This document shows positions 3,878 to 47,762 of a stretch of DNA of 49,707 nucleotides, piece after piece. The stretch spans positions 1-49,707 of IMG/VR virus record IMGVR_UViG_3300031673_000080. The stretch is one strand, 5' to 3'. Origin of the DNA: a virus. How positions within the stretch are numbered: position 1 is the stretch's first letter; every line of letters starts with the position of its first letter. The translations under genes were made by a program, and so were the position numbers. Below the pieces are notes generated by a model that was not told the DNA's origin, did no database searches, and saw nothing but the letters and a program-made list of their open reading frames with translations.

Positions 3878-6682
3878 ATGATCGAGAGTATTGAGGGCCT
3901 TAAATCGGTCCCTATCTCGCTGTCCGGCGGGGTCGATGAAATAAGCCCATCCGACAGTCTTGCCCCGGGCGATTGTGTCAAGATGACCAACTGGCGTCTG
4001 ACCAAGGACGGGAAGAGAATCCAGAAACGCGGCGGACTCCAAGAAGAGGCCACGGCGTTCGGGGAGGACGTCTACGGCTACGCTACCTATTTCGATACGA
4101 CCCCTGCGTTTTGCCAGCTCGCCGTCCTCGAGACCGAGATTCAGCGGAAGGTCGGGGGTGCGGCATGGGCGAACATCTACGACTGGCCGGCCGCGGCGAC
4201 CATCGACCATACCGTCAAACCTCTCGAAATCCAGGGCAAGCAGTTCATCATCACGGAAAAGGGAAGTCGCGTCATCCTGGCAGACGGGACCATCCGGCAG
4301 ATTGGGATAAGTCCTCCCCTGACCCTTCCCACGCTTGCCGCAAATTATGTGACAACAGCTCCGTTCTCGATTAACGAATTATTCCCCTACGCTAACACCG
4401 CGGCCTTAGATGCCGTGTGGACAGACGATGATTCTGGGGGCGGGGTATCGACGCAGGAGACCGCAGACCCGTATGGTGCTCCTGGGCCTGACGCCGATGC
4501 TCATTATGTGAAATTCTCTACTCCCGCAGGTGGGGGAGTCATAGCGAAGAGGTGGAGAACAGGAGCCGTCGACATCGGATCTGTTTATTCTATTAATTTC
4601 GCTACCTACTTTAAAACGCTGAACGCCTTCCATGCGTTCCTGATGTTCCACAACGGGTTTAGGGTTGCTGTCTACAATGGATCATTCCTCGTTGAACTCC
4701 ACATATGTAAAGACGGAATCTTTCTTACGGGGAATAACGATATCCCACGAAGAATATCTACTGACGTAACTCCTCTCGAAAAATGGATTACCTGGAATGT
4801 TTCTGTCGATGGCTCCGATCATCAGAAAATTATAGTCACCGTTTACAGGACGGTTGACGGAACTCCCACTTCGGTAACGATACCCAACCACTATCATCCG
4901 GACACCAATTTTCCCAATGACGTTTTTTTGGAGTTGGCGAACAGGATCGCTACCGATGCTCAAGAAGCGTGGGTCGATTTCATCAAGGTTGTTCCCGTCG
5001 ACGAAGACGCGGCCGTGATTACCGGGGCATACCGATATGCCGTGTCTTTCGTTAGAACGGGGAACTACGGATGTGAATCCAATCCAATAAAATCGGTAAT
5101 CGGAACACCTGCGTTCAGCGTGGCTCCAGGTCTCGACGACATGACCGTGAGTGCAGAGTCAACGTATACCGGGAACGTGAACAGAACCATTCGCGTCTAC
5201 GTCAAAACTGCCGCATCCCCCCAGGATACAATCCAATGGTCAGACGATGCCGGGTTGACCTGGAGCGCAGAGATCAAGTTGGCAACGAAGGTATACCTTG
5301 GATTCGGGATCACCGTAAACTTCGCCGCTATAACAGGGCATACGGCAACGAACTATTGGGAAATCGTATGTTCCGCATGTTCTGTGGTAGCGACCGGGCA
5401 ACAAGTCACCTTGACGAATATCCCCGTCCCCTCTCCTGCTGATACCCAAGTTACGGCGAGGAAGATCTACCGGACAGATGCCGGAGGGTCTATCTTCTAC
5501 TACCTGACGACAATCTACGATGGGGCAGTAACTACCCAGATAATCGACAACTTCCCAGATACGGGCGGCCTTGGCGAAGAGATGGAAGAGGACCGCGACC
5601 TGTTCACCGAGGCCACCACAGGACAGGCCGGCAGTCTTTCGACAACGATCGGAAAGTTCTCCGAATGGTGGGATGACCGGCTCTGGATTGCAGACCACGT
5701 CCAGAACCTCATCTATTACTCAGCGGTCAGATCCGGGGGCGGGGTCCCCGAAGAGTTCTCGATCAGCGAACGGTTCGTCCCTATTCGCAGAGGCGACCAG
5801 GGCGATGTCATCACGGCCATGAAGGCCTACAAGGACGCCCTCTACGTCTTCAAGCGGAACGACATCTTCATCATCCAGAAATCCATGAACGGGTACGGTG
5901 TCTACCACTTGAACAGCGACGTGGGTTGCATCGCCGACGGTTGTGTCGAGGTCGTCAACGATTTCCTGATGTTCCCCTCGGAGCGAGGACTCGAGGTTTA
6001 CGATGGGGTAAGGACTTACTCACCGGACTTTTCCGTGGCCATCAACAAGACCTTCCTGACGGCCGACCCGGCCGGCTACAAATACACGAGTATCGTTCAC
6101 GACAAGGAGTATAACGAGGCCTGGCTGTCGATCTCGAGCCGCTTGGATGGAGCGGCGGCCATCACGATCGTCTGGAACTACATCAAGAACAAGTTCTTTT
6201 TCTTCCAGTTCTACAAGACGCCGTCCTGCCTCGTCTCCTGTAAGGATTCGACCGGGAAGCGCGTCGTGAAGATGGGGACCCAGGACGGGTTCGTCCTCCT
6301 TTGCGACTACGGCACGGCTGACCACACGACGGCGATCACCGCCACCTACCGCAAGGGCTGGCTGGACATGGGCGCTCACGGTATCGGGCGGCTCATCCAG
6401 ACAAAGTTCGAACTCCCCGCCACCAAAACGATCACGCTCAACGTCTACGTCAACATGGAATGGGACGTCTTCCGAACGGCGGCACTTACGGGGGTTACTC
6501 CAACGGCGACAGACATCGAAATCAGGCGGGTGATCGGGGACAAGGCGGAGCTGGGGACCAGGCATCGCTGGATCGCAGTCGAGTATGTGAACGCCGAAGA
6601 CTGCGGCGGGGACTGCAAAATCAACGAGGCTAACATCATTGTCCGTCCGGACGTGATAAAGAAAAAGACCTATGCCGACTAA
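3878..6682 (+). CDS. Tail hub / stabilisation-type structural protein with lectin-like insert
   Basis: This 934-residue protein is preceded by TTAGGAGATTCTT. The N-terminus (LSGGVDEISPSDSLAPGDC, then NWRLTKDGKRIQKRGG) resembles phage proteins that bind the connector and carry repeated beta modules. Residues about 165-373 form a beta-sandwich-like block in visibly lower-GC DNA (4370-5000), which may be an acquired carbohydrate-binding domain. The C-terminal half has repeated propeller-like strands (YKDALYVFKRNDIFIIQKS, near residue 650). It follows the adaptor and overlaps the fibre gene by 11 bases. Probably the tail nozzle or hub. Confidence 0.6.
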   Translation: MIESIEGLKSVPISLSGGVDEISPSDSLAPGDCVKMTNWRLTKDGKRIQKRGGLQEEATAFGEDVYGYATYFDTTPAFCQLAVLETEIQRKVGGAAWANIYDWPAAATIDHTVKPLEIQGKQFIITEKGSRVILADGTIRQIGISPPLTLPTLAANYVTTAPFSINELFPYANTAALDAVWTDDDSGGGVSTQETADPYGAPGPDADAHYVKFSTPAGGGVIAKRWRTGAVDIGSVYSINFATYFKTLNAFHAFLMFHNGFRVAVYNGSFLVELHICKDGIFLTGNNDIPRRISTDVTPLEKWITWNVSVDGSDHQKIIVTVYRTVDGTPTSVTIPNHYHPDTNFPNDVFLELANRIATDAQEAWVDFIKVVPVDEDAAVITGAYRYAVSFVRTGNYGCESNPIKSVIGTPAFSVAPGLDDMTVSAESTYTGNVNRTIRVYVKTAASPQDTIQWSDDAGLTWSAEIKLATKVYLGFGITVNFAAITGHTATNYWEIVCSACSVVATGQQVTLTNIPVPSPADTQVTARKIYRTDAGGSIFYYLTTIYDGAVTTQIIDNFPDTGGLGEEMEEDRDLFTEATTGQAGSLSTTIGKFSEWWDDRLWIADHVQNLIYYSAVRSGGGVPEEFSISERFVPIRRGDQGDVITAMKAYKDALYVFKRNDIFIIQKSMNGYGVYHLNSDVGCIADGCVEVVNDFLMFPSERGLEVYDGVRTYSPDFSVAINKTFLTADPAGYKYTSIVHDKEYNEAWLSISSRLDGAAAITIVWNYIKNKFFFFQFYKTPSCLVSCKDSTGKRVVKMGTQDGFVLLCDYGTADHTTAITATYRKGWLDMGAHGIGRLIQTKFELPATKTITLNVYVNMEWDVFRTAALTGVTPTATDIEIRRVIGDKAELGTRHRWIAVEYVNAEDCGGDCKINEANIIVRPDVIKKKTYAD

Positions 6683-9600
6683 CAGACGACGACGGAAAGA
6701 GGACCAGGGAATATCCCCTTTCATGGATCCTGCTTTCCGCCGCGCCTCAGTCTATTTCGACGACATCGAATACCAGCGTCGGTTCGAGCAGAACCTCATT
6801 CGCTATGACCTCAAGGGGGGAACCCAGATCACAAAGGAGATCAGGGTCGCCGTCAGCGGCGGCGGAGGCGGCGGCAACGGCCATGCCTTCTGCTACTGGA
6901 CGCTGGAAGGCTCCAACATCGTTCGCTATGGGGGGAACGTCGGCGTCGGCGTCCATCCCCACTCCAACGACTTCGAGGTCCGCGGCAACGTCCTTGTCGA
7001 GGCCATCGCGGAGCAACCCTACGTCGAGATTAGGAACTGGTCGGACACGGAATACGACCCCGTCATCCATTGGTCACTCGGAGCCACCCCGGTCAAGAAA
7101 TATACGATGGGAGTGGACGACAGCGATAGCGACGCCTGGCTCCTCTGCTCCGGCGACATCCTGACGAGCGTGGAGGCCGCGGCGACCTATGTGATGAACA
7201 GGGATTACGACGGGTTCCTTTACGTCGTAGACACCCTCAACCATAGACTCAAGAAACACCTGTCCGCCGATGCTATGACCTATGTTTCAAAAATCGGCTC
7301 AATCGGAACCGGGAACGATAATTTCAACACGCCACAAGCAATTTGCAATGACGGGACATATCTGTATATCTGCGACCGAGTCAACCACCGGATAGTAAAG
7401 CGGAAGGTTTCGGACCTTTCTTACGTTACGGAGATCGGTAGCAACGGGTCTGGGGATGACCAATTCAGCAATCCCTGGGGCATTTGCACGGACGGGACGC
7501 ATGTTTATATCACCGATATGGGCAATAACCGAATAAAAAAGCACCTGTGCGCAGACCTGTCCTACGTCTCAAAAGCGACCGTCTCCAGTTCCAGCGGAGC
7601 CCCTATCGGCCCCCATAATTTCAACCAGCCAAGGGCAATCTGCACAGACGGGACATATCTTTACATCACCCAGAATGGCGGGATAGTGGCCAGGTTGGTA
7701 ATTCTCTTTTGCTCAACGCTTTCCGACGTTCTCCATATTCACGATGATGGCCACATCGACTCCTGTACCCTGCTTGGCATCTGCGTGACGGGCGGTTTTC
7801 TTTATATCCTCAACCAGAACAGCACCAGCACCCTGAAGCATGTTTATAAATATACCGCCTCGCTTCTTTCCTACGTCACTCATTGGGGAGTATACGGAAC
7901 GGGCGTCGGGCAGATGACAACCCCATTGTGCATCGATACGGACGGGACAACCCTCTGGATTTTTGACTATGCCGCTCCGCCGGACGCCAACAGGCTCATG
8001 AAATTCCTCCTCGACGGAACCTACGTTGCAACCTATGGCCAGTATGGGACAACCGGAGATGACAAGTTTTATTATGCCTACGGATTGTCGTTAGGCGGAA
8101 CCATTTCTTTCTCAAGCACGCTCTACCGCGCCCCCATCCTGAAGGTCGCCCTCGACGGTTCCTACATTGACGCCTATCCGCTATTTCGCGCCAGGGACGG
8201 ATTTCAGCTCATGGAGGATGGGACGGTCGGGGCGACAGATTACGTCGGCCTCTACGCTCCAGCGGCGATCACCGCATCGTACTCGCTGACGTTCCCTGGG
8301 ACGGGTCCGGCGGCGGCAGGCCATTTCGCCGTTGACGCGGCGGGGCTGATCACTTGGGGCCAGAGCCTCATTACGACGGCCAGCCCCACGTTCGTCGGCC
8401 TCACCCTCTCCGGCCTGACCGCGAGCCATCCCGTCTTTACGAACGGGAGTAACGTCCTGGTTTCAACCGGGACGGTTCCGGTTGACCACGGCGGGACGGG
8501 GCTCGCCGTTTATGTCATCGGAGACTTGATCTACGCTTCCGCCACGACGACCTTGGCCCGACTTGCCGACGTAGCGGTTGCTTCGTATCTGCGGAGTGGC
8601 GGGGTCGGCGCGGCCCCGCTTTGGTCTACGCTGAAACTCCCCAATGCCGCGACCGCGTTTCGGCTGCCGGTTGCCACGTCTGCGAACACGATCGGAGAAG
8701 TGGCCGCGGTCGGTGCTACCGGGCAATATCTCGCTGGGGCTACGGGCGCGATCCCTGCGTGGGCGACACTCAACCAGGCGGCCATATCGGGGTTGACGAC
8801 GGCTGATAGCCCGACCTTCAATTCTCTTTACCTTACGACCTATCTCTACGCCGGAGTAGACGATACTACGAGGGGATATCTTCATGCGTATGGCCCAGGC
8901 GTAGGGGGCGGGGCTTTCGGCGGGACGCTCGCCTGCTATACGGGCGCAGACCACGACAGCACAATCCAGAACTACGGGTTTATGGTTTATGAGGATGATC
9001 TTCTTATTGGGCCAGACACAGATACCGATGCCCTGAAGCTCGACAGCAACCTGGACCTTTACATCACGGCAGGCTCCCTCATTCTCCCGGCATCCGAATA
9101 TTTGAATTTCGGTGGGGTTATTGGTTCCGGTTCCTACGGTCTACGGGACAACGCCGGAGTCGTAGAAATAAAAAATAGTGGCGGGGCGTGGGCTTCTCCT
9201 CTCACGGGGGTCACGGTTCACAACCTACTGTCTGCCACGCATGGCGATGTCTTCGTGGGCGTCGTGGAAGAGGGAGACATAATTTATGGCATCTCGCCCC
9301 TTCCCGGCTGGCCCTACTGCAAGCGCATCGACCTCCCCATCCCGACGGCGAACCTGACGGACTTCCCAGAGAAGGTTCCCATTATTGCCGACGCTGACAT
9401 CGGGGCGGAGTGCCTCGCCTCGGGCTACGACATCCGCTTCACGGCGGCTGACGGGGTGACGCTCCTGCCCTATGAGCGGGAGTCCTTCGCCGTTGCTGGC
9501 GGTGAGGCGACGGGCATCTTCTGGGTCAAGACGAACGTTTCGATGGCGGGGACGTATATCTGGTGCTACTTCGGGAACGCGGCGGCGGCGGATGTATCCA

Positions 9601-10253
9601 CGACGATTGACAAGTCATTCCTCCGGACGGACGTTGATGCCTGGACGACAACCGGACAATGTGTTGTAAACAGTCCGACGGAGATTCAGAAAGTTGGAGG
9701 GGCCACCGGCTGGGATTCCTCGGCATACGGCACAAGCGGGCGGGTCTGTGGGTGTGCCGCTTCGTTTCAGGCCGGCCAAACAGACAAACATTGTGCGATA
9801 GGATTCACGGATGCCCCCCCCTCAACCCCCGGAGATAATCTGGCCTATTATTGGTATTTCCGCGACGACGGGGTTTGTCGAATCGATGTTTTAGGCTCTA
9901 TTGTTGGGACTTACGGGGCCTATACAACAGGCACGGTTTTTCTCATGACCTATGATGGCTCCTATATAAGATTCTATAAAGACGCAATTCTGCAACATGA
10001 GGTTGCCCGTGCAACCGGGGCCGCGCTTCATGTTAATTCAGGATTTTATAGCGTCGATGGTATTATTAACAATATCGCCTTCGGCCCGACTGAGACATGG
10101 GATAATCTGGCAATAGCAAATTACATCCCCGCCGACGGCGGGTTGACCTGGGGGGAGGAGGAGACGACAGCAAGGTGGACAAGGTTGGCGAAGGGTGCGG
10201 CGGGCCAAGTCCTTACGATGGTCTCTGGACTTCCGGCGTGGGTAACGCCATAA
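6672..10253 (+). CDS. Tail fibre / host-recognition protein with NHL-type propeller and DUF2341-like domain
   Basis: A 1193-residue modular protein. Residues 1-170 are a tail-attachment part with a Gly-rich linker (near 60). Residues about 178-480 hold repeated units such as ICNDGTYLYICDRVNHRIVK and ICTDGTHVYITDMGNNRIKK, typical of NHL/beta-propeller blades; this segment is AT-richer than its flanks. Residues about 490-860 are fibre-like repeats with a GGTG motif. Near 879-985 a DUF2341-like stretch appears (GYDIRF, WCYFGNA), followed by a lectin-like C-terminal domain. It overlaps the hub gene by 11 bases. Receptor binding is the likely job. Confidence 0.75.
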   Translation: MPTNRRRRKEDQGISPFMDPAFRRASVYFDDIEYQRRFEQNLIRYDLKGGTQITKEIRVAVSGGGGGGNGHAFCYWTLEGSNIVRYGGNVGVGVHPHSNDFEVRGNVLVEAIAEQPYVEIRNWSDTEYDPVIHWSLGATPVKKYTMGVDDSDSDAWLLCSGDILTSVEAAATYVMNRDYDGFLYVVDTLNHRLKKHLSADAMTYVSKIGSIGTGNDNFNTPQAICNDGTYLYICDRVNHRIVKRKVSDLSYVTEIGSNGSGDDQFSNPWGICTDGTHVYITDMGNNRIKKHLCADLSYVSKATVSSSSGAPIGPHNFNQPRAICTDGTYLYITQNGGIVARLVILFCSTLSDVLHIHDDGHIDSCTLLGICVTGGFLYILNQNSTSTLKHVYKYTASLLSYVTHWGVYGTGVGQMTTPLCIDTDGTTLWIFDYAAPPDANRLMKFLLDGTYVATYGQYGTTGDDKFYYAYGLSLGGTISFSSTLYRAPILKVALDGSYIDAYPLFRARDGFQLMEDGTVGATDYVGLYAPAAITASYSLTFPGTGPAAAGHFAVDAAGLITWGQSLITTASPTFVGLTLSGLTASHPVFTNGSNVLVSTGTVPVDHGGTGLAVYVIGDLIYASATTTLARLADVAVASYLRSGGVGAAPLWSTLKLPNAATAFRLPVATSANTIGEVAAVGATGQYLAGATGAIPAWATLNQAAISGLTTADSPTFNSLYLTTYLYAGVDDTTRGYLHAYGPGVGGGAFGGTLACYTGADHDSTIQNYGFMVYEDDLLIGPDTDTDALKLDSNLDLYITAGSLILPASEYLNFGGVIGSGSYGLRDNAGVVEIKNSGGAWASPLTGVTVHNLLSATHGDVFVGVVEEGDIIYGISPLPGWPYCKRIDLPIPTANLTDFPEKVPIIADADIGAECLASGYDIRFTAADGVTLLPYERESFAVAGGEATGIFWVKTNVSMAGTYIWCYFGNAAAADVSTTIDKSFLRTDVDAWTTTGQCVVNSPTEIQKVGGATGWDSSAYGTSGRVCGCAASFQAGQTDKHCAIGFTDAPPSTPGDNLAYYWYFRDDGVCRIDVLGSIVGTYGAYTTGTVFLMTYDGSYIRFYKDAILQHEVARATGAALHVNSGFYSVDGIINNIAFGPTETWDNLAIANYIPADGGLTWGEEETTARWTRLAKGAAGQVLTMVSGLPAWVTP

Positions 10254-10271
10254 ACTTAGATGGAGAACGAA

Positions 10272-10550
10272 ATGACAGATATACCGAAGTTGAACGGAAA
10301 GGGTTCCCTGGCCAAAACCCTGGCCTACGCCATCGTGGTTCTTGCCCTGGCTGGTTATAGCCTTGTGAAAACGATAGAGGGCGGTTCGGATCAAAATGGA
10401 ATCGCCCTCGAGAAGCGTTTGGTCACGCTCGAAACGGTCATGGAGTCGTTGAAAACAATCCCGACCGACGTGGCCGGGATCAAAGTTTCCATCAGCGGCC
10501 TTAAGGAATCTGTTGACAAACTAGAGAGAACAGTCAGTTCTCTTAAATAG
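10272..10550 (+). CDS. Small membrane protein with coiled coil
   Basis: The ATG at 10272 is preferred because GGAG lies 6 bases upstream; an ATG at 10260 is the alternative. The 92-residue product has one hydrophobic segment (about residues 15-33, AYAIVVLALAGYSLV) and then a heptad-like helix to the C-terminus, with a short cytoplasmic-type basic N-terminus. It lies between the fibre and ejection-protein genes. It could be an ejection-associated or lysis-related membrane protein. No family was recognised. Confidence 0.65.
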   Translation: MTDIPKLNGKGSLAKTLAYAIVVLALAGYSLVKTIEGGSDQNGIALEKRLVTLETVMESLKTIPTDVAGIKVSISGLKESVDKLERTVSSLK

Positions 10551-10559
10551 GAGGCTATC

Positions 10560-11204
10560 ATGCCACTTCCAGCTTTGGCTTGGGGCGCAATAATGGCGGG
10601 GAGTTCGCTCCTCGAATCTATCCTTGGCCAACTCTTCAAGAGAAAGCAATCCAAGGACGTCAAGGGATTCCAGAGGGAGACGACCGCGAAGGGTCGAGAG
10701 CTCATGGCCAGCCCGGGTTTCTCCCAAGAGGAAATCGACGCCATCTTCGGCAAGAGCTTCGAGAACGTCCGGGCTCAGGGCAAGGGAGTCCGCGAGTCCA
10801 CGACGGGGACGCTTGGCCGGGCTGGTATGCTCGGAACCGGGGCGGAAGTCGGGGCGGCCAGGAAGAACGCCTGGTCGAATGAGAGCTTGGTCACAGAGGC
10901 CATGCGCGACCTCCTCATCACCGGAGAGGCGAAGAAGAGTGCGGACATCGCCCTGGCGACCCAGATGTTCGGAGTCGCGTCCGGAGCGGACGTGCAACAA
11001 CAGGCCATGGGGCAGGGGCAGGGGCCAGCTCTAAGCGAAATGCTCATGATGGCGATGCTCATGGGGAAGGGGGGCCAGGGGAAGTCGGCACTCGGAGACG
11101 AGTCCTACCAGGCTTTGAGAAACCTCACCGGGGTTTTTGGCCAGAACGACCCGACATCTTGGCAAACTTTAGGAACCAACCCAGTCTCTATCGGCGAGTG
11201 GTAA
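10560..11204 (+). CDS. Putative internal virion / ejection protein (small)
   Basis: A 214-residue protein preceded by AGGAGGCTATC. The N-terminus is short and hydrophobic (LAWGAIMAGSSLLESILGQL), followed by a basic stretch, long helices and a Gly/Met/Gln-rich region near residues 155-180. This is the composition usual for the smallest of the three ejection proteins of short-tailed phages. It precedes the 387- and 2181-residue genes, a typical three-gene ejection set. The role rests on composition and order. Confidence 0.6.
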   Translation: MPLPALAWGAIMAGSSLLESILGQLFKRKQSKDVKGFQRETTAKGRELMASPGFSQEEIDAIFGKSFENVRAQGKGVRESTTGTLGRAGMLGTGAEVGAARKNAWSNESLVTEAMRDLLITGEAKKSADIALATQMFGVASGADVQQQAMGQGQGPALSEMLMMAMLMGKGGQGKSALGDESYQALRNLTGVFGQNDPTSWQTLGTNPVSIGEW

Positions 11205-11214
11205 GGAGAAACCC

Positions 11215-12378
11215 ATGGCGATCCAATTAGATTTTTCAAGATCGAATCAGACGCTCGCCCGATTCAATCAGTTCCTCGCCTATGATCTACTGGATCAAAA
11301 GAAGTCCGAAAGAGACGTTGCCCTCATGGGTATCCAGGACCGGCTCATGCGCGAACGACAAGTCCAGGCTGGCCAGATTGACATAGGCGTCGCCGAATAC
11401 AAGTCTGCCCTTTCGAACGAGGAGTCCTGGACGAAGGCGAAGCTCGAAGCCGCCAAACAGCCGTGGTTTGAATATCTCAACATGTGGGCCAACATGGCCA
11501 TAGACGAAACGGTGCCCCAGAAGTATCACGGAACGATTAGAAATGCGGTCAAGCTACGGGGGGAAATAATCGGCAGAATGGCCGACGCCTTCCAGCAAGC
11601 GAGCCAGGGGAAGATGTCTTGGGAGAACGCATACGCTATCGCTGACTCGTCCGGCGTTAAGGGGCTAACGGAAATGACCCAGGAGGCGGGTTCGGGCAGG
11701 AGGGCGAACTTGGCCGCAGAAGTCGACCGCGAAAAGATGGACATTGAGGAGAGGAAACTCACCGACGTAGGGGCGGGAAGAACCCAGGCCGCCGCAGAAA
11801 AGATGACCGACCGCTACATCAAATGGGTCGATGACACGGTCAGTTACCTGGTCGGAGAGGGCGTCCAGAGCCAGGCAATGACGGGGGACATGCCGATATA
11901 CCTCGAATCGAAATCGAGGGATCCGCTTTCATCGCAAGACCGGGGGTTCGCTCTCACGCATCTCCAGAACATCAAGACGCAGATCCTTCGCCAAGGATAT
12001 GAAAGCCTCACGGACGGTCAGCTCGCCTTCATCTCCAAGGTCTACAACACCCCGGCCGTCCAAGGGTTCGTGTCGGAGAAGCTGAAGACAACCCCGGCCG
12101 CTGGAACAAGGCCGCCTCGCCCAGGAGGGGCGGGGGATCTACCTCCAGCCATGGGCGGGACGCAGGGAGGCCTGAGTCCGGCCACGGGAGCGACCAATCA
12201 GGAATACGACCAGGCCCTCGGGTCCGTCCGGCAGACCTGGATCAATCAGAAGGCGGAGGAATTCATAAAGGCGGTCTATGGCGAGGCCGCCCCAACTCCA
12301 GAAATCCAGCAAGAGGCGATGCGATACGCCACGGAGTATGTCGACACAAAGATAATGCCGTCGCTCATGAAGAGGTAA
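11215..12378 (+). CDS. Putative internal virion / ejection protein (medium)
   Basis: A 387-residue, mostly helical protein with an AAGGAGAAACCC ribosome site. The N-terminal 190 residues are rich in Gln, Ala, Lys and Glu with coiled-coil character. A Pro/Gly-rich linker follows near residues 298-325 (TRPPRPGGAGDLPPAMGGT), then a short helical tail. No signal peptide, membrane segment or enzyme motif is seen. It abuts the giant gene by 3 bases. Size, helix content and place match the middle ejection protein of podovirus-like phages. Confidence 0.6.
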   Translation: MAIQLDFSRSNQTLARFNQFLAYDLLDQKKSERDVALMGIQDRLMRERQVQAGQIDIGVAEYKSALSNEESWTKAKLEAAKQPWFEYLNMWANMAIDETVPQKYHGTIRNAVKLRGEIIGRMADAFQQASQGKMSWENAYAIADSSGVKGLTEMTQEAGSGRRANLAAEVDREKMDIEERKLTDVGAGRTQAAAEKMTDRYIKWVDDTVSYLVGEGVQSQAMTGDMPIYLESKSRDPLSSQDRGFALTHLQNIKTQILRQGYESLTDGQLAFISKVYNTPAVQGFVSEKLKTTPAAGTRPPRPGGAGDLPPAMGGTQGGLSPATGATNQEYDQALGSVRQTWINQKAEEFIKAVYGEAAPTPEIQQEAMRYATEYVDTKIMPSLMKR

Positions 12379-12381
12379 GAA

Positions 12382-15300
12382 TTGTCCACCCAAGAAGCAG
12401 AGGTCCAGGTTAAGCCTCCAGCTCAGACGTTCGACCCGGATTTCATGTCCTTTCTCGAAGAGAAGGGAGTCATCCGCACGTCCTCCCTGGATCCGGCCGC
12501 TATTCCTAGCACGATCAAACAGGACCTCCGCGACGACTTCCTCTATTTCATCAAGCAAAAAGGATACGCCATTCTCGATGAACCCCTGCCCTCGAAGGAA
12601 GAGGCCGCATCCAGACTTTCCCAAAGCACAGAAGAATTGCGCCAACTCTACCTCAAAAGATTCGGGGCAACAATCGGACCAATCGAAAGGGAGAAAATCT
12701 ACGAGAGGCCAATGGTTGCGCCGAGTTATGGTGGCCGCGATACTATCGGCCCTCGCAGGCCCGGCGAAAGGGATCTGTCCGGGCTGGAACAGCTCGAAAA
12801 GAAACTAACGAGAGAAAGTTCTCTTGTGAAACAAATGGGTGACGCCCTCTCGCTTATACCCAAGGGGAAGATCAGGGAGGCGGGGGGGATGTTGGCCGAA
12901 GCGACGGCGCGAGCCCTTAGTCTTGGGATGGTTGGCCCGGGCCTTCTTGATAAACTGGATGATTTATTTGTAAGCGCTGGTATTTCCGGGCCGGGTTACA
13001 AGACGATGAAACAGCGGCGCGAAAACGTCGTCAAGGAACTGGGCTATTATCCAGAGAAAGCTACGAAGCCGTTCGAATTCGTCCTTTCTGTTCTTCCGAT
13101 TGCCAAAATCTTAAGGGTCGCGCGCGGGATAGGGGCCTCCGCAGCAGTCGCTCCCATCCTTCAGCGTTTTATAACCGCCATTGTCGCCGGCGGGGTCACG
13201 GGAACGGCCCAGGTTGTTGGGGAAAAGATAGCCGGGGAGCCCTTCGACCTCGAAGCGGACCTGAAGAAGCTCCCGACGCACATGCTCTATTGGTCCCTAT
13301 TTGAAATGGGAATCCTTGGTGCGGAGACGGCCGCGAAGATCGTCAACTGGAATCTGAAATACGGTGGGAAGATTTCCGGCACGGGCAAGCGTGGAGGTTA
13401 CGCCGCCGCTCAAGGTATCGAGTTCGAGACGCAATACGCTCCGGGCCGGGGCCCGACGACCAAGGCGAATTTCACAGCCGAAGAGATTCGGGACATCTAT
13501 CGAAGGGCAGACCCGAATTACACCGGCGCTGGCAAGGTTTCCGCAGACCCGGGGAACTGGGAGCGCCAAGCCTATGAGTCCATTACGGGAGCGAACGGTT
13601 GGCGAGAGGCCGTGCGCCGCGGCTGGATTCCCCCGCGTCCAATCGCGGTCCCGGGCGAGACACCAATCGTCACGGGGAGAACCATTCGCCCGACAGGGAC
13701 CGTGCCTCCCGAGTTCGGCGGCCAACCCGTCCCTCTCAAGCCTGAGTTCGGCGATGTCTTCCGTACCACCCCAAGGCAATATCCGGCCCCGGGTATCGTC
13801 GGAAAGCCCCCCGTTACCCCCGGAGCACCGTCCACGACAGCGCCTCCGCCCATAGCGGGGGCAGGGGGAACGGCAGAAGCCCCGCCACCGCCGGGCACAG
13901 CCCCTCCGGCCGTCGCTGGAGCACCGAGGCCAGAGCCGCCACCGATCGTCACCCCTCCGCCGGCGGCCGCGGCACCCAAGGCCAAGCCCAAGATCAAGGT
14001 CACGCCGCAAGAGGATGGGTCATTCACGGTCGAGACGGTCGAGCCAGAAATCGAATACGTCCCGACTCCCGGGAAGGCCAAGCTGGCCATGAAAGACAAA
14101 GCGACGGGGAGGGTCTACCCCGGAACCGCCGGAGAACAAATCCACGCCGACATGATGGATCGATTGGCTAAGGCGGGAGTCCAGGACGACAACATGATCC
14201 CCGGATGGATCGCGCCGGATGGACTTTGGACAACGAGCCTTGCGAAGGCGACGCCACCCATAACCGAGAAGCCCATCACGGGACCTCCACCCGAGAGTCC
14301 GTATGCCGGGATACCGCCGAGAAAGCCGATCGAACCAGAACCCCCGAAGGAAGAGATACCGCGTCCGGCGAAGGCCCCCGTGGACGAGGCCAAGCCATAC
14401 GCCCGGAAAGAAGACGCCCTCCGCGAAGCGATCAAGCGGGTCCAGGCCGACGAAGGAACCCCAGAGGACGTGCGCCTTGTCCTCCAGGCTGCGCGTCGAA
14501 ACGAACGCCTCAAGAAAGTCACCGAGGCGCTCAAATCCAGGCAGAGAACCGACCTCCTCACGGGCGTCGGCAGCGATCGCGCCCTGGCCAAGGTCCGCGA
14601 CTGGGAGAAGCGACCCGTCATTCTCTTTGACCTAGCCGGTGTCAAGGCCGCCAACAACGACCCGAAACGCGGCTACCAGTGGACGGACAAGAACATCTTT
14701 ATCCCGGCCGGCCGAGTTTTCAGAGCCTTCGGAGACGATCGGATCTACCGGCGCGGCGGCACGGCAGATGAATTCCCCCTCATCGGAAGACCCGGACAGA
14801 CTCTCGAAGACCTGACGAAAGACGCCGAGTTGATTTCCCAAGAACTTGACAAGACCGGTGTCGCCCATCGGTTCTCTTCCGGCAATAACTTTTCCGAGGC
14901 CGAGGTCGGCATGGCTGGCCTCAAGGACAAGGCCAGAATCGAGGGAGTGACATCGCCCGTTGTCCCCGAGACGCTACCCGAACTCGAGAAGTTCATCGTC
15001 ACCGAGGCCGGGGAAGAACGCCTGACCATGACCGGAAAGCCGGGGGACGCCGTCGCCACCCTGACCAAAAGTGATGACGGCTATTTCAGGATTCAAAGGA
15101 CGGCAGATAAGACTTTCGTCAAAAGCCCAAGAACCGGATTCCCCGATTTCCCGAACCGAGACGCGGCATGGAAGGCCTACCTCGAAGAGCGCAAAGGCGG
15201 AGGCCTTCGGGACGCGTCGCTGGCCGAGCCTTCTCAGCGGTTCATTAAGAGCCTGGAGCCGCCGGAAGAAAGGGCTCGGCGTATCCTCCAGTCTCGCCGT

Positions 15301-18300
15301 GCGGCCCAGGCCAAGCGCGGCCGAGTTGGTATGCCCAAGAACCCGCCGAAGATCTGGAAGGACATCATGGAGATAACGGGCGGCGTTGGGATGCGCCCCA
15401 TGTTCACCTCGACCGGGGCCGTGGCCGAAGAGTACCTGGTCAACGTCCCGAAGTTCATGAAGAACAAGAACGGAAAGCCGCCCGACGAGATCATCGATGC
15501 CCTAGAGCGGGACTACGGCTACACCTTCGTCGAAGAGGATATGTGGAGTCTCCTCTCAAAGGCCAGATACGAGACGCCCGGAGATTACGGAGATGAGGGG
15601 CCGATTCGTCCAGGCCATCCGGACCCGGAGGCCATCGAGGCCGAACTCGCAAGACAGAAGAAAGAATACGCCCCGCTCATGAAAGAAGGCGAGACCCTTG
15701 ACGCCTTCCTCGGTCGCATGGCCCAGGACGCCGCGGAAGATGGATTCGGAACACGACCGGAGGACGTCGACGAATACATCAGCCAGATGATTAAGAACAA
15801 GAAGGGCGGCGGAGAGCCGGAGGGCGGAGCGCCGACAGAAGCGGTCCCGTTCGAGGTCGCCGAAAAGCCAACGCCGTATAAAAAGGCCGAGCTGGACATC
15901 GCCGGAGAAGTCCAGCGTCTCACGTCTGGGGATTTCTTCCCGAAGGAATGGCAGGGAAATACTGACGTCGAGATCCAGGACAATCGCCAGAACCTTTTCC
16001 GTTTCGTCTGGGAGAACTACACCCCAGACAAGGGGCCGCTTGAGAATTACATAAATGCCAACAAGGGGTTCTTCATCCGCGGGGAGTCCGGTCGGAAGGG
16101 CATGGCCAAGCTGAAAAGGGAACAGCAATTCCCCAAGACCGTCACCGGCGGAGAGAAAGACTTCGGCGAGGACAAGTCGGTCTTTGGCCCCGAGTCGCAG
16201 CCGAAGGGCAAGAAACCGCCCGAGCCGGAGATTCCCGGCGACAGCATGAAGCCGGACGTCTTCGGGGCTGAGGAGATACGGGTCATGAATGCCCTGCGCT
16301 CGACGGCCCAAGTCTACACGAAATCGCTCGGTGAGGCACCTGGGTTCGAAGACAAGGCCGTGGAAATCCTCAAGTCCCGCCTCCTCGCGTCGACGCCTGA
16401 GTCCTTCCGGTCTATCGGCGAACGCCTCGGATACAGCAAGAGCTACGTCAAGAAGCAATACGATGCGATGCTCGAGATCCTTAAGGACAGCCCGGCCATA
16501 AAGGAGATTATGGCAAAGCGCATGGTTTATCTGAATATGGGGCCGCTCCCGTCAGAGCAAGACCTCAAGCACCTGGCCAAGATGCTCCGAAAGTATTTCT
16601 CGTCCTACCGCGGGGCCGACAAGATCATCGACCAGCAGAACGACCGACGGATCGGCGGCAGGATGGCCGAGATATTCGACCAGACGATTGACGCCTCGAA
16701 GATCAACAAGTGGCTCAAGGATCAACCAGAGGGAACGAACGAATTTCTGGCCCAACTCATGCGCGGGACGATGAGCGGCGACGGGATGGAGGACATCCAG
16801 AATAGCGCCCTCCCCGCGGACATCAAGGAGGCCATGCTCAACACTCGGCAACGGGTCGACCGCCTCTCGGACCTCGTCATCACTCACGGCGGCCTGGCCG
16901 AAGAGACGCGGGCGGCCTTCGAGAATAACATCGGGAGGTACCTGGCCAAGTCTTATCGCCTCTACCAGGACAAACATTGGAGCCCGACCGACGCGCAGAA
17001 GGACGCCTTCAAACGCTGGCTGATGAACGAGTATACGATGACAACCGAACAGGCCGATGAGTTCATCGAGGCCGAACTCGCCTATGGCAGGAACGACGAG
17101 GGCATACGTCCGCAGCGGAGCCGGCGGACACGCCGTGTCCCGACCGAACATTTCATCCGCCGGAAGGTCCTGTCCCCAGCATGGAGGGAATTCGCCGGAG
17201 AGATCGAGAGACTACCCTGGCTGGCCATGCACACCATCACGAAGCAGGCCACCATGGCCTACAACGCCAAGTTCCTCGACTGGATCTCCGAGTATCTGCC
17301 CGATCATTGGACGGCGGATTACCGAGAGGCGGCCCAACGCGGATGGCAGAATTCCCAGTTCCCTGAGCATGGTTATGCCTACGGAAAGCTCGCCGGCAAG
17401 TGGGTCCACCCCGAACTCCACCGATACATTACGAAGGAATTCGACATGGCCCGTTCGGATATGGAAGAAGTGATCCAGAAATTCATTACTAATCCTTTCA
17501 AGTGGACGAAGACCATCGGGTCTTTGCCATCTCACTCCCGCAATTTCCTTAGTAACTTCGGGTTCTCTATGTTGCTTAGAAACAGCATCTTAAACCCCCT
17601 CAACGCCAAGTGGTACATAAAGTCGCTGAATATTCACCTGAACAATCACGGCTCCGCCAGGGACGCTTGGTCGAAACTTATCTCCGAAGGCGTCACGGAG
17701 ACGCAGTTCTACGGTGCGGAGATCCCGCGCATCCATAAGGACGTGATGAGGTTCGATCCCGCCACCTGGCCGGAGAAAATTTGGGATAAATTCGTAGCAT
17801 GGCCGATCGACAAGCTCGGAGAACTCTACAATTTCGGCGACTCCCTCTACCGTGTCTCGTCTTACCTTAAAAACACGGCGCCGAAGAGCGAGGGTGGGTT
17901 CGGGATGACGCCGACGAAGGCGGTCGAAGAACTCAATGCCGGCTTACAGAACTACCGCAAACTCCCTGTCGTGGTCGATTTCCTTCGCCGCTGGCCGGTT
18001 CTCGGGCCATTCGTTTCATTCAAGGCCAACACCGTCAAGATTATCAAAAGACAGTCTGAGATGGGATACGAGGAAATCACTAACCCTGCGACGCGCAGCA
18101 GGGGAATTGGCCGGATACTTCGGATTGCCCTCTTCCTGTCCGTCCCGGCCATCCTTTCGGAGGTCTCCAAGAAGGTCTTCGACGTTGACGACAAGCAGAT
18201 CAAGGAACTCGAACGCTGGTATCCTGAGTATCGCCGGAACGGAACGTTCCTCTATTTCCGCGGGGAGGGCGACAAGCTCAAGGTGTTCGACTTTTCTTTC

Positions 18301-18927
18301 CTCTGGCCGACGGGCGACATAGAGCGTATGTTCAAATCAATCCTAAAAGGAGACATCAAGGGGCTAGCAGACGCTCTTGATTTCTTCTCGCTCCCGCTCC
18401 TTGATGCCTGGTCTATCGCCATCCAAGGCCAGGACCCTCAATGGGGGACCAAGTATCGGACGATCGTCGATCGCGCCAAGGCCGCGGCCGCATACCTCTA
18501 TCTGCCGGCATCCATGCCCATCCCGAACCTCGAGGGGTTGCTCAAGGGCGACGTGCGCCCGGGGAACCTGACCGGCCCGCAGATCAAGGCCGTCATCGAT
18601 GCCTACAACGGTCAGCCGGACCAGTATGGCCGGGTGAAACAGCTCCCCGAAGAGATCAAGAACTTCTTCTCGGGCATCAGGACGTGGGACGTTGACCCGG
18701 AGAAACTTCTGGCTCAAGCCGCCATCCAGCGGAGTGGGCAGATCAGGGAACTCCAGGGAGAGTACGCCAGGTGGCTGAGAAAGAATACCTTGGCACCTCA
18801 ATGGGAGAAGGACGCGAAGCAAAAGGCCTTCGTAGAAGGGGTCGAGAAGATCAGTGCCGAACTCAGGGACATCGGAGCCCTCGGCAGGGAACTCAGGGCC
18901 GGCGGATTCAAGGCTAAGACACAGTAG
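12382..18927 (+). CDS. Giant 2181-residue ejection / polyvalent protein with GGDEF-like and sigma-like modules
   Basis: The start is a TTG preceded by AGAGGTAAGAA. Order of parts: helical N-terminus; hydrophobic block (about 230-320); Pro-rich linker (about 430-560); GGDEF-like module with DLLTG at 724-728, a VILFDLAGVKAANN strand and RGGTADEF at 791-798; a stretch with ITGGVGM near 995, similar to modules seen in large phage polyvalent proteins; a sigma-factor-like region (about 1175-1375), with YTPDKGPLENYI and an HTH-like IGERLGYSKSYVKKQ; then a long helical C-terminus with one hydrophobic segment near 1915. By order it is the largest ejection protein, likely delivered into the cell. GGDEF similarity is fairly clear; activity is uncertain because two residues are inserted in the signature. 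The sigma similarity is weaker. Confidence 0.75.
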   Translation: MSTQEAEVQVKPPAQTFDPDFMSFLEEKGVIRTSSLDPAAIPSTIKQDLRDDFLYFIKQKGYAILDEPLPSKEEAASRLSQSTEELRQLYLKRFGATIGPIEREKIYERPMVAPSYGGRDTIGPRRPGERDLSGLEQLEKKLTRESSLVKQMGDALSLIPKGKIREAGGMLAEATARALSLGMVGPGLLDKLDDLFVSAGISGPGYKTMKQRRENVVKELGYYPEKATKPFEFVLSVLPIAKILRVARGIGASAAVAPILQRFITAIVAGGVTGTAQVVGEKIAGEPFDLEADLKKLPTHMLYWSLFEMGILGAETAAKIVNWNLKYGGKISGTGKRGGYAAAQGIEFETQYAPGRGPTTKANFTAEEIRDIYRRADPNYTGAGKVSADPGNWERQAYESITGANGWREAVRRGWIPPRPIAVPGETPIVTGRTIRPTGTVPPEFGGQPVPLKPEFGDVFRTTPRQYPAPGIVGKPPVTPGAPSTTAPPPIAGAGGTAEAPPPPGTAPPAVAGAPRPEPPPIVTPPPAAAAPKAKPKIKVTPQEDGSFTVETVEPEIEYVPTPGKAKLAMKDKATGRVYPGTAGEQIHADMMDRLAKAGVQDDNMIPGWIAPDGLWTTSLAKATPPITEKPITGPPPESPYAGIPPRKPIEPEPPKEEIPRPAKAPVDEAKPYARKEDALREAIKRVQADEGTPEDVRLVLQAARRNERLKKVTEALKSRQRTDLLTGVGSDRALAKVRDWEKRPVILFDLAGVKAANNDPKRGYQWTDKNIFIPAGRVFRAFGDDRIYRRGGTADEFPLIGRPGQTLEDLTKDAELISQELDKTGVAHRFSSGNNFSEAEVGMAGLKDKARIEGVTSPVVPETLPELEKFIVTEAGEERLTMTGKPGDAVATLTKSDDGYFRIQRTADKTFVKSPRTGFPDFPNRDAAWKAYLEERKGGGLRDASLAEPSQRFIKSLEPPEERARRILQSRRAAQAKRGRVGMPKNPPKIWKDIMEITGGVGMRPMFTSTGAVAEEYLVNVPKFMKNKNGKPPDEIIDALERDYGYTFVEEDMWSLLSKARYETPGDYGDEGPIRPGHPDPEAIEAELARQKKEYAPLMKEGETLDAFLGRMAQDAAEDGFGTRPEDVDEYISQMIKNKKGGGEPEGGAPTEAVPFEVAEKPTPYKKAELDIAGEVQRLTSGDFFPKEWQGNTDVEIQDNRQNLFRFVWENYTPDKGPLENYINANKGFFIRGESGRKGMAKLKREQQFPKTVTGGEKDFGEDKSVFGPESQPKGKKPPEPEIPGDSMKPDVFGAEEIRVMNALRSTAQVYTKSLGEAPGFEDKAVEILKSRLLASTPESFRSIGERLGYSKSYVKKQYDAMLEILKDSPAIKEIMAKRMVYLNMGPLPSEQDLKHLAKMLRKYFSSYRGADKIIDQQNDRRIGGRMAEIFDQTIDASKINKWLKDQPEGTNEFLAQLMRGTMSGDGMEDIQNSALPADIKEAMLNTRQRVDRLSDLVITHGGLAEETRAAFENNIGRYLAKSYRLYQDKHWSPTDAQKDAFKRWLMNEYTMTTEQADEFIEAELAYGRNDEGIRPQRSRRTRRVPTEHFIRRKVLSPAWREFAGEIERLPWLAMHTITKQATMAYNAKFLDWISEYLPDHWTADYREAAQRGWQNSQFPEHGYAYGKLAGKWVHPELHRYITKEFDMARSDMEEVIQKFITNPFKWTKTIGSLPSHSRNFLSNFGFSMLLRNSILNPLNAKWYIKSLNIHLNNHGSARDAWSKLISEGVTETQFYGAEIPRIHKDVMRFDPATWPEKIWDKFVAWPIDKLGELYNFGDSLYRVSSYLKNTAPKSEGGFGMTPTKAVEELNAGLQNYRKLPVVVDFLRRWPVLGPFVSFKANTVKIIKRQSEMGYEEITNPATRSRGIGRILRIALFLSVPAILSEVSKKVFDVDDKQIKELERWYPEYRRNGTFLYFRGEGDKLKVFDFSFLWPTGDIERMFKSILKGDIKGLADALDFFSLPLLDAWSIAIQGQDPQWGTKYRTIVDRAKAAAAYLYLPASMPIPNLEGLLKGDVRPGNLTGPQIKAVIDAYNGQPDQYGRVKQLPEEIKNFFSGIRTWDVDPEKLLAQAAIQRSGQIRELQGEYARWLRKNTLAPQWEKDAKQKAFVEGVEKISAELRDIGALGRELRAGGFKAKTQ

Positions 18928-40987: not shown

Positions 40988-41495
40988 TGGAGCGGATAGG
41001 GACCGGAAGTTCGTCGAACTTTGGTCTGGGACCGGCTTTGACTCGCTCGAAAAAAACAAATGCGCCGTTGCCGCGGGGTTCACCCCGAAGGGCGCCAGCC
41101 AAGGAAGCAACCGCGTCCTCAACAATCTTGTCCGCAACAAGAAAATGCAGAAGAAGCTCGACAAGCACGGCGTCACGATGGATCGGCTGGCCGCGAAAGT
41201 TGACGAATTACTCGACGCTCCGCACCCGCTGGCAAAGCGGGAATTCAATCCGTTCACGAAAGAGCTCATGCCGCCCCCGCCGGACAATTTCATCCAGTAT
41301 AAGGCCGCGGAGCTGGGCATTAAACTCCACGATGCCATGCCTCCGACGCGGATAGCCGAGGACAAGACCGAGACGAAGCAGATCATCTTCTCCGCCGAGG
41401 TCATCCAGAGACTTGAGCGTTACGACGAACAGACAAAACTCATTGAAAAAGGGGCAGTAATCGATGTTGAGTCCGTCCCCGTTGACCAAGACTGA
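40974..41495 (+). CDS. Terminase small subunit (candidate)
   Basis: A 173-residue protein. The N-terminus has CAVAAGFTPKGASQGSNRVL, which fits a small DNA-binding helix-turn-helix with a Gly turn, followed by charged helices and a coiled coil (VIQRLERYDEQTKLIEKG). It directly precedes and overlaps the large terminase. It would recognise the packaging start and regulate the large subunit. Assignment by position and helix pattern. Confidence 0.7.
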   Translation: MSGNNGADRDRKFVELWSGTGFDSLEKNKCAVAAGFTPKGASQGSNRVLNNLVRNKKMQKKLDKHGVTMDRLAAKVDELLDAPHPLAKREFNPFTKELMPPPPDNFIQYKAAELGIKLHDAMPPTRIAEDKTETKQIIFSAEVIQRLERYDEQTKLIEKGAVIDVESVPVDQD

Positions 41496-43011
41496 CCTCG
41501 GCAACCGTAACTGGTGGCGATGGAAGTCGACCAGTCTTTCCTGGTTCAATGCGAACATCATGCCCCACGCATGGGACGAGAAGTTCCATGATTTCGGGAT
41601 GATCCAGCGGGCGATGTGCGACCATCTCGACCCCTCCGTGAATCCGAATTCCCAGATTTACCTGTCGGCCTTCCGCGGTAGTCATAAATCAACGCAACTC
41701 CTCGGCCTGATCTGCTATTTCCTGTGCTGGAATCTGGCCAAGAAGAACACGAACTCGCTCGTCTACAACACCGCGACGAAGGACAATGCCTTCAATATGT
41801 CCGCCGATGTCAAACACTCTCTCCTCCACAACGAAGTCCTTCAGTGGGTTTTCCCCGAATTGCCGAGGGAAGAGAGCGGCTACGACGATATGACCCAGAA
41901 GCGGATCCAGCACCGGCACGTCAAATTGGACTTTTCCTCGCTTGAGACAACCCTTGTTTCGAGGCATTATCCGGTCTGGCTCAACGACGACTTGGAGAAC
42001 GACGAGAACGCGAAGACCGAATACATGCGCGAAGAGCTCAAGAAGAAGTGGAAATACCAGAAAGCCATTCTGACCAAGATCCAGAGCCGCGGGATCGGCC
42101 TTGAGTATGAGATCGGAACACCGTACAGCGTCAACGGCCTGACCTGGATGATCCGGAACCTCCCCCGCTATTCGAAACTCGAGATCCCCTGCTACGTCAA
42201 CCGCGACATCAACCAGGGCGTCACGTTCCCCGAACTCTATGCGGTTGAGGATTTCGAGGGCAAGCGGGAAGAGATGGGAAATTCAATATTTCAAGCTCAA
42301 TACCTTCTCAGGCCAATAAGCGAAGAGGACGCCCTTTGCCCGGAGGCATGGATGCGGAAATGGAACACGCTACCTGACCTCCGGTGGCGTTCAATGGTAG
42401 TGGACCCCGGCGGTTCCTCCCCGGGAAAATCCGACGCCACCGGAATTACAATATGCGACACCGATGAGAACGGGGTCATCTACATAGTCTTTGCCGACGA
42501 GTTTTTCCTTACCCCGGAGAAACTCATCGACTGCATCGTGAATCTGAAAAACACCTATGATCCGGACGATGTTCGCATCGAAAAAGAAAGGTACGCCACG
42601 ACAATCGCCGACACCTGGCAACACAAGTATCCGCTCTTGAACATCTCGTTTGTCGAACACAAGGGCCGGAGAAAGGGCTGGTCGAAGGGGACGTCGGCGA
42701 ACATGAACGACAGCCGGATCTGGCGTCTGAAACAATGGTTCGAGACGCGGCAGATCCTCGTCGGTCCGAACATGCCGGCTTTCGAGAAGCAACTGCTAGA
42801 GTACCCGGATTCGACCCGTGATGATATGCTCGATTCTCTGGCCTACCAGCTGGACATCCGCCGACTACCGAAGCGGAGGGGGAAGATCATCCTTCCGTCT
42901 GGCCGGGAGTTCGAACCCTCGATCGGAGAGGCCTTCGAGAAAGAGATGGACACATATTACGAACGAAAAAGGGAACGCGAAGAGGGGAGGAACGCAGATG
43001 CTATCTTTTAA
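41464..43011 (+). CDS. Terminase large subunit
   Basis: A 515-residue packaging motor. The Walker-A-like AFRGSHKST is near residue 69, with His where GK[ST] usually has Gly. A Walker-B-like HYPVWLNDDLEND lies near 167. The nuclease domain has MVVDPGG with D near 317, IEKERYATTIAD, and DDMLDSLAYQ near the C-terminus. AAGGGGCAGTAATCG precedes the ATG, which lies inside the small-subunit gene. Drives DNA into the capsid and cuts it. Confidence 0.85.
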   Translation: MLSPSPLTKTDLGNRNWWRWKSTSLSWFNANIMPHAWDEKFHDFGMIQRAMCDHLDPSVNPNSQIYLSAFRGSHKSTQLLGLICYFLCWNLAKKNTNSLVYNTATKDNAFNMSADVKHSLLHNEVLQWVFPELPREESGYDDMTQKRIQHRHVKLDFSSLETTLVSRHYPVWLNDDLENDENAKTEYMREELKKKWKYQKAILTKIQSRGIGLEYEIGTPYSVNGLTWMIRNLPRYSKLEIPCYVNRDINQGVTFPELYAVEDFEGKREEMGNSIFQAQYLLRPISEEDALCPEAWMRKWNTLPDLRWRSMVVDPGGSSPGKSDATGITICDTDENGVIYIVFADEFFLTPEKLIDCIVNLKNTYDPDDVRIEKERYATTIADTWQHKYPLLNISFVEHKGRRKGWSKGTSANMNDSRIWRLKQWFETRQILVGPNMPAFEKQLLEYPDSTRDDMLDSLAYQLDIRRLPKRRGKIILPSGREFEPSIGEAFEKEMDTYYERKREREEGRNADAIF

Positions 43012-46442: not shown

Positions 46443-47762
46443 ATGTCAGTTGCATCACTCTCCACGTCCGGCTTGAATAAACTCTTCCTGGAGGATATCA
46501 AGAAGGGCCTGGAAGTCGCACTCTACGAAAACACCTCCGTCTACGACAGATTCAAGACCAATACCGAGGACGTCAAGGGCAAATGGGGCGTTACGAAGGT
46601 CCTCACGGCCACCCCCAAGTCGTTCCGCGCGTCTTCGACATCGACGTTCCCCACGGCGGACCAAGGGACCTACAACGAGTTCATCTACTACATGAAGAGG
46701 GGCGGCTACGGCACTCTTCAGTTCGATGGGCTTGCCATGGCCTGCGGCAAGGGCGTCGGTGCGGTCAAGGAACTCGTCAAGGCGGAAATCGACGCCATGA
46801 TGCTCTACATCCCCTCGAAGCTCAATAAGCAGTTCTGGGGGGATGGGTCAGGGCGTCTGGCCATCATCGGAACCGGCGCAGCCGGCGGAGTCACCATCAC
46901 CGTCGACGGCGACACAACCCTGGGGCGGTTCGGCATCGACGCCAACGAATACACCGACCCCTCAAACTACCTCTTCGAAGGCATGTCGGTAGACATCTAC
47001 ACCGCAGCCGGAGTCCTCGAGGCATCCGACGTCAAGATCTCGAGTATCGCTCTCGGCGGGGCCGGAACCGACACGCTCACCATGGCCTCGGCCATCACGG
47101 CCACCGCCCAATCCTACCTCTACGACCACGACACCTTCCCGACCGGCGGGACGGAAGCGGCCGGGACGGGAGTTCCCATGGGCCTCTACGGAATCTGCGA
47201 AAGCGCCAACCCCTACATCGGGGGAGTGCTCTCGTCGGCTTTCCAGGGCGTCGACAGGTCCAGCAACACTTGGGCCACCGCCCAGATGTTCAACATGGGC
47301 ACGGCCATCGGATCTCCGGCGGTCATCACGGACCAGGCCATCCTCAAGGTCATCCAGAAGGTCGAGCGCTACGGTGCCATCGACGTCATCATGACGAATG
47401 GCGCAATTTGGCGCGCACTCTTCACCATCCTCAAGGCCGACAAGACCATGCCGAATGATCCCGGCTATTGGGGCGGCCTGACCGGCATGAAGTTCTACGC
47501 CGGCAAGGCCAAGTCCATCCCGATCGTCTTCGACGACGACTGCCCGGACGGTCGGGTGTATTTCTGGGGCAAAGATGCCGTCCAGATCACGTCCCCCGAC
47601 AAGGCGGGCCTCGACTGGCTTCCCGGAGATTCCGGGAACGTCCTGTCGCGGGTCCAGGGCAAGGACGAGTGGGCCGCGAACCTGCGGTGGTACTACAACA
47701 TGACGGCCAGAAAGCCCCGGAACATCGGCGTCCTTCGCTACGTCAAGCACGCGAGTGCGTAA
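46443..47762 (+). CDS. Major capsid protein
   Basis: A 439-residue protein directly after the scaffold. GGAGGCTAATCCT precedes the ATG. The N-terminus is helical (LEDIKKGLEVALYENTSVYD); the middle has GGYGTLQFDG and a Gly/Thr-rich beta region; the C-terminus (VYFWGKDAVQ, ANLRWYYNMTARKPRNIGVL) looks like the final strand of a capsid P-domain. Position is the main argument for an HK97-fold capsid. A second allele of its end is at bases 1-219. Confidence 0.8.
   Translation: MSVASLSTSGLNKLFLEDIKKGLEVALYENTSVYDRFKTNTEDVKGKWGVTKVLTATPKSFRASSTSTFPTADQGTYNEFIYYMKRGGYGTLQFDGLAMACGKGVGAVKELVKAEIDAMMLYIPSKLNKQFWGDGSGRLAIIGTGAAGGVTITVDGDTTLGRFGIDANEYTDPSNYLFEGMSVDIYTAAGVLEASDVKISSIALGGAGTDTLTMASAITATAQSYLYDHDTFPTGGTEAAGTGVPMGLYGICESANPYIGGVLSSAFQGVDRSSNTWATAQMFNMGTAIGSPAVITDQAILKVIQKVERYGAIDVIMTNGAIWRALFTILKADKTMPNDPGYWGGLTGMKFYAGKAKSIPIVFDDDCPDGRVYFWGKDAVQITSPDKAGLDWLPGDSGNVLSRVQGKDEWAANLRWYYNMTARKPRNIGVLRYVKHASA

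Follow-up and report, generated by a model that had tools for sequence, protein, structure and literature searches.

A diverged compact GGDEF-type domain in a giant, very probably virion-carried phage protein

Does a giant phage protein contain a genuine GGDEF domain of the diguanylate cyclase type, and could such a domain act on nucleotide signals in the host? The question is raised by a viral record of 49,707 bases (the window, that is, the whole stretch of DNA that was analysed), in which an open reading frame with a TTG start encodes a protein of 2181 amino acids, referred to here as the giant. The original prediction placed a GGDEF-like module within this protein, at 14545-14900. The motifs quoted for residues 722-798, RTDLLTG, DLAGVKAANN and YRRGGTADEF, were confirmed in the translation, as were the two extra residues in the signature (GGTADEF). 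The domain runs slightly past the proposed interval, to about residue 860 (position 14961). The gene and the features of its domain are as follows.

12382-18927 (coding to 18924), plus strand: putative giant virion/polyvalent protein of 2181 aa (open reading frame, PHROG match, C-terminal homologues in phages).
14524-14961, plus strand: compact GGDEF-type domain, residues ~715-860 (independent profile; AlphaFold2 model and Foldseek).
14545-14565, plus strand: RTDLLTG, the counterpart of DxLTG, residues 722-728.
14629-14658, plus strand: DLAGVKAANN, residues 750-759, with the metal-type Asp D750 and the guanine-type Asn N758.
14671-14691, plus strand: GYQWTDK, residues 764-770, in which D769 is the counterpart of the guanine-binding D344 of PleD.
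14746-14775, plus strand: YRRGGTADEF, the signature, residues 789-798, in which TA is a two-residue insertion and D796 and E797 are kept.
14872-14937, plus strand: FSSGNN (831-836), K848 and, tentatively, R852, in the final strand and helix.

The signature of the giant is interrupted, reading GG-TA-DEF (residues 792-798) in place of an uninterrupted GG(D/E)EF, and this insertion was seen in the giant only, among all relatives examined. A DNA pattern for RGGTADEF gave just two chance matches, both in unrelated short frames. The part of the domain that follows the signature is shorter than in canonical GGDEF domains. The RxxD allosteric I-site, which is common and not required, is absent, and FGDD (residues 783-786) occupies its position.

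The Pfam GGDEF model (PF00990) did not match the giant when the whole protein, the excised piece or the record was searched, and a single-sequence PDB search with the domain returned nothing credible. A single sequence lacking a direct Pfam or PDB match would be in keeping with a chance resemblance, with coincidental motifs in a protein that lacks the GGDEF fold. Since the single-sequence searches were uninformative, profile evidence was needed. An independent profile was built from seven GGDEF proteins, with the giant and its nearest relative, L009, left out. This profile scored 43.5 bits against residues 690-870 of the giant (E 3.7e-12 in the test set), far above the noise: the highest score among 2000 shuffles of these residues was 6.4 bits, and reversed giants and the other frames of the record scored below 6.4 bits. 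In the other direction, a profile of the giant and L009 only retrieved the diguanylate cyclase of T. maritima as its best PDB sequence match (4urs, 4urg and 4urq; E 2.9e-4 to 5e-4), followed by GcbC at E 0.002. The alignment of the same pair by hhalign with L051, a second giant relative, and two YuA-type phage proteins gave a probability of 97% and an E of 1.2e-10. Chance resemblance was rejected by the shuffle control and, given the matches in both directions, the Foldseek result and the colinear GGDEF stretch of L009 described below, is highly improbable. Identity with mCpol (minimal CRISPR polymerase, Panoptes OptS) was also rejected, as the same profile gave E ~0.5 for mCpol vs 2e-19 for the best GGDEF match.

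The fold was predicted with AlphaFold2 from the giant's stretch and five relatives, and the model was of moderate confidence (pLDDT 71, pTM 0.63). In a Foldseek comparison with the PDB, the top 50 matches were all GGDEF structures (best E 2.4e-6), and 5llx gave a TM of 0.70 on the query. The best viral match was the GGDEF protein of Bordetella phage CN1 (E 1.7e-8). The domain is thus predicted to adopt the GGDEF palm; because the predictor's alignment held bona fide GGDEF rows, the fold counts as supporting evidence but not as a fully independent proof.

When phages were searched by tblastn with the domain, eight weak matches were obtained (E 0.005-0.4), six of them in Bordetella phage records with proteins annotated GGDEF; the other two were a hypothetical protein from Pseudomonas phage Epa38 and a fecal-phage protein with a GGDEF domain at its end. 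The proteins of FP1 and Epa38 are above the PF00990 cut-off (~3e-15) and align with the giant through all motifs at 33% identity. Close relatives of the whole giant or of its domain were not found in the viral contigs searched. The nearest relatives among named phages are YuA-type GGDEF proteins (~33% identity to the giant's domain), a set comprising Pseudomonas phages YuA (gp44), MP1412 and Epa38 and Bordetella phages FP1, CN1, CN2 and MW2. These proteins have a shortened C-terminal part and the active-site residues in common with the domain of the giant; however, they are small, standalone products of an early-type gene region with an intact xGDEF and no fusion to a virion protein. YuA-type phages commonly encode such standalone compact GGDEF proteins (L001, 7980-8450; L002, 5838-6302), and many of them are annotated as hypothetical.

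The active site was compared with that of PleD, in which the metal ligands are D327 and E370, while N335 and D344 contact guanine, and E370, K442 and R446 contact the phosphates (PMC7288161). The residues D327, E370, N335, D344 and K442 correspond to D750, D796, N758, D769 and K848 of the giant, and R852 may match R446, where the alignment is uncertain. The expected metal-binding Asp is thus present, at residue 750 and not at about 748 as first proposed. D750, N758, D769, D796, E797 and K848 are invariant in the giant, L009, L051 and three standalone phage relatives, at ~20-30% identity to the giant (~20% between the giant and L009 or L051). The nominal hypergeometric p for this conservation (~1e-7) overstates the surprise, because the alignment was anchored on the same motifs. 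Taken together, the profile searches in both directions, the predicted fold and the conserved active-site residues support the identity of the domain, which is almost certainly a true GGDEF homologue.

The T. maritima enzyme, tDGC (TM1788; 4URS/4URG/4URQ), and the giant have the same metal and guanine residues (PMC4215984). The enzyme reads DLAGFKAIND where the giant reads DLAGVKAANN, so that the third-position Ala of DLAGVK is also found in an enzyme that makes c-di-GMP (PMC4215984). In contrast to the giant, with its GGTADEF and without RxxD, tDGC has the canonical GGDEF motif as well as an RxxD I-site, and it has been shown to produce c-di-GMP. In hybrid cGAMP-making enzymes, a serine contacts guanine in place of Asp (PMC6456294). 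D769 of the giant is the Asp typical of diguanylate cyclases, and c-di-GMP is therefore the likelier product, if the domain is active.

The insertion of TA, unique among the relatives examined, lies within the signature itself and could displace D796 and E797, and the RxxD inhibitory site beside the signature is absent as read from the sequence. Both features favor a catalytically dead domain, which would bind GTP or c-di-GMP as a sponge or receptor, or else provide a surface for docking to host proteins. Catalytically dead GGDEF domains are common in bacteria. Nevertheless, all six positions that contact metal, base or phosphate have been kept while the three giants have diverged to ~20% identity. 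This points to pressure on the nucleotide site, although it is also compatible with a sponge that uses the site. A dead domain is considered rather unlikely. Judging from the retained residues, the GGDEF domain probably binds GTP or a cyclic dinucleotide, and it is possibly, as a more tentative reading, an active cyclase.

Next, the protein surrounding the domain was considered. Known Pfam domains, including those of polyvalent proteins, were not found in the giant by Pfam search. L009 (3105 aa), its nearest relative, shares three colinear blocks with it.

12742-13734, plus strand: L009-conserved block upstream of the GGDEF domain, residues 121-451 (25% identity, E 3.7e-9).
15271-15801, plus strand: L009-conserved block downstream of the GGDEF domain, residues 964-1140 (40% identity, E 2e-26).
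15895-18918, plus strand: C-terminal carrier module, residues 1172-2179 (52% identity to L009).

As in the giant, the GGDEF stretch of L009 (SRYGGDEF) lies between the first two shared blocks; it scored E 0.03 with PF00990, below the cut-off, and E 6e-6 with the independent profile. L051 (1517 aa) has the same carrier, and its GGDEF domain is above the Pfam cut-off (E 2.4e-9, 37.6 vs 23.8 bits). L009 also contains a histidine kinase/HSP90-type ATPase domain at residues 1342-1466 (PF02518, E 9.4e-7), in a large segment that is absent from the giant. Right after its GGDEF stretch, the region 4883-5603 of L009 (residues ~716-955) appears ADP-ribosyltransferase-like by eye (YHWT, LYFT), and Pfam finds nothing in it.

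Carrier residues ~1475-2110 are common to many phage giants, and over residues 1516-1989 the giant is similar to proteins from phage Y3 (E 1e-19), from phage 023Pt_psg01 and from Cellulophaga phages. In IMG/VR, 333 candidate carrier relatives were confirmed and the best 80 of the 333 were kept; the GGDEF profile scored in only two of these 80 loci (L009 and L051), which is a lower bound, as some loci are incomplete. The domain is therefore an optional, occasional cargo and not a needed structural part. A scan of genome contigs gave no close prophage relatives of the carrier, and a second scan gave 17 distant carrier relatives, none of which (0/17) has a GGDEF domain by profile. Elsewhere, carrier-bearing proteins contain ART-PolyVal, InPase (pyrophosphatase), MuF_C, LPD1, LPD3 and LPD5 domains. 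These are the usual inventory of polyvalent proteins, and the giant fits the pattern of a large multidomain protein whose relatives bear variable enzymatic cargo.

Whether the giant is carried in the virion was judged from its homologues and neighboring genes. The carrier is common to the giant, Pseudoalteromonas phage vB_Pun_Y3 WPJ21803 and Cellulophaga phi18:3 gp123, and the last of these is recorded as a virion structural protein, with 'annotation based on experimental MS/MS proteomics analysis'. Residues 1809-1965 of the giant match a PHROG virion structural protein (E 3.7e-4). The neighboring features of the window are given below.

3878-18927: large structural-type genes, including the giant gene, at the record end opposite the terminase, portal and head genes.
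41464-43008: terminase large subunit, at one end of the record.
43303-45276: P22-type portal (PF16510, E 2.7e-11).
46443-47762: major head protein, at the same record end as the terminase and portal.

The original prediction of delivery with the virion thus gains from the homology to phi18:3 gp123 and from the position of the gene among structural genes, whereas packaging in this phage is what we infer from them; the giant is very likely carried in the virion. Two other structural-type genes lie nearby. The 1193-residue product of 6672-10253 has an NHL repeat (E 3.2e-9) and weak TolB-like propeller and DUF2341 matches, and is probably a tail or spike-type protein. The 934-residue product of 3878-6682 is matched by PHROG families of virion structural proteins, internal virion proteins and amidases (E 1e-12 to 7e-9), and may be another internal virion protein, one that bears a cell-wall enzyme.

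A domain embedded in a large virion protein and so diverged (22-26% identity to L009 in the GGDEF domain vs ~52% in the carrier) might also be a relic, or have a purely architectural function in the ejection apparatus that involves no nucleotide. The conservation of the nucleotide-site residues and the presence of the domain in so few carrier loci, as befits an optional cargo, speak against this, and such a role is unlikely.

A further segment of the giant, residues 1172-1390 (15895-16551), is common to L009 and possibly sigma-70-like. In hhalign comparisons of the giant and L009 profile with E. coli FliA, RpoS and RpoH, a region-4 helix-turn-helix was aligned at a pairwise E of 0.0014 and a probability of 17%. 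The model of this segment was of low confidence (pLDDT 51), and its 16 best Foldseek matches in the PDB were sigma chains or sigma-containing transcription complexes, individually non-significant (best E 0.27). Direct Pfam and PDB profile searches of the segment gave no sigma family. The resemblance is suggestive only; an ejected protein with a sigma-like portion would merit attention for that alone. That one ejected polypeptide combines a working cyclic-dinucleotide synthase, with its GG-TA-DEF, and a sigma-like segment is a long shot; if true, both host signalling and transcription would be targeted by a virion protein before phage gene expression.

GGDEF domains in polyvalent proteins were described by Iyer et al. 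(2017) as 'not very widespread', including that of a prophage giant of Acetonema longum (PMC5512222); the giant therefore belongs to a known kind. For these proteins, a role in nucleotide signalling was predicted from sequence, and they were proposed to interfere with host responses based on similar nucleotides (PMC5512222). Like the GGDEF polyvalent proteins of that study, for example the Acetonema longum protein (WP_004096050.1), the giant is a multidomain (pro)phage protein with GGDEF among unrelated cargo, encoded beside virion genes. Unlike them, it appears to have a different C-terminal carrier, in a phage with a P22-type portal, and its domain is beyond Pfam detection, with the signature GG-TA-DEF. 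Cargo differs also among carrier homologues: in the Y3 protein, an ART-PolyVal-like stretch close to the N terminus takes the place of the giant's GGDEF cargo. Neither an ART-PolyVal domain nor an EAL phosphodiesterase domain was found in the 49,707-base record.

On balance, the giant is best read as a polyvalent protein that is carried in the virion and has a GGDEF domain for handling nucleotides, its conserved C-terminal carrier being joined to variable N-terminal cargo that here includes this compact domain. The protein would enter the host with the DNA on ejection. Because the metal- and GTP-holding residues are kept, the domain would most likely bind GTP there, and it would probably make c-di-GMP or a related nucleotide, or sequester such nucleotides. 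Host cyclic-nucleotide signalling, or a nucleotide-triggered defence, may thus be perturbed early in infection.

In summary, the finding adds to the phage GGDEF proteins a diverged subgroup that lies below Pfam detection and is missed by profile libraries, together with the carrier of that subgroup, two relatives that are giants as well, and a modified signature. D750 and D796 are the residues that bear on whether such GGDEF domains are enzymes. Proteins that enter with the DNA act before phage gene expression, when host defences based on cyclic nucleotides could first react. If a virion-borne nucleotide-signal enzyme is indeed present, host signalling would be a target at the earliest step of infection.
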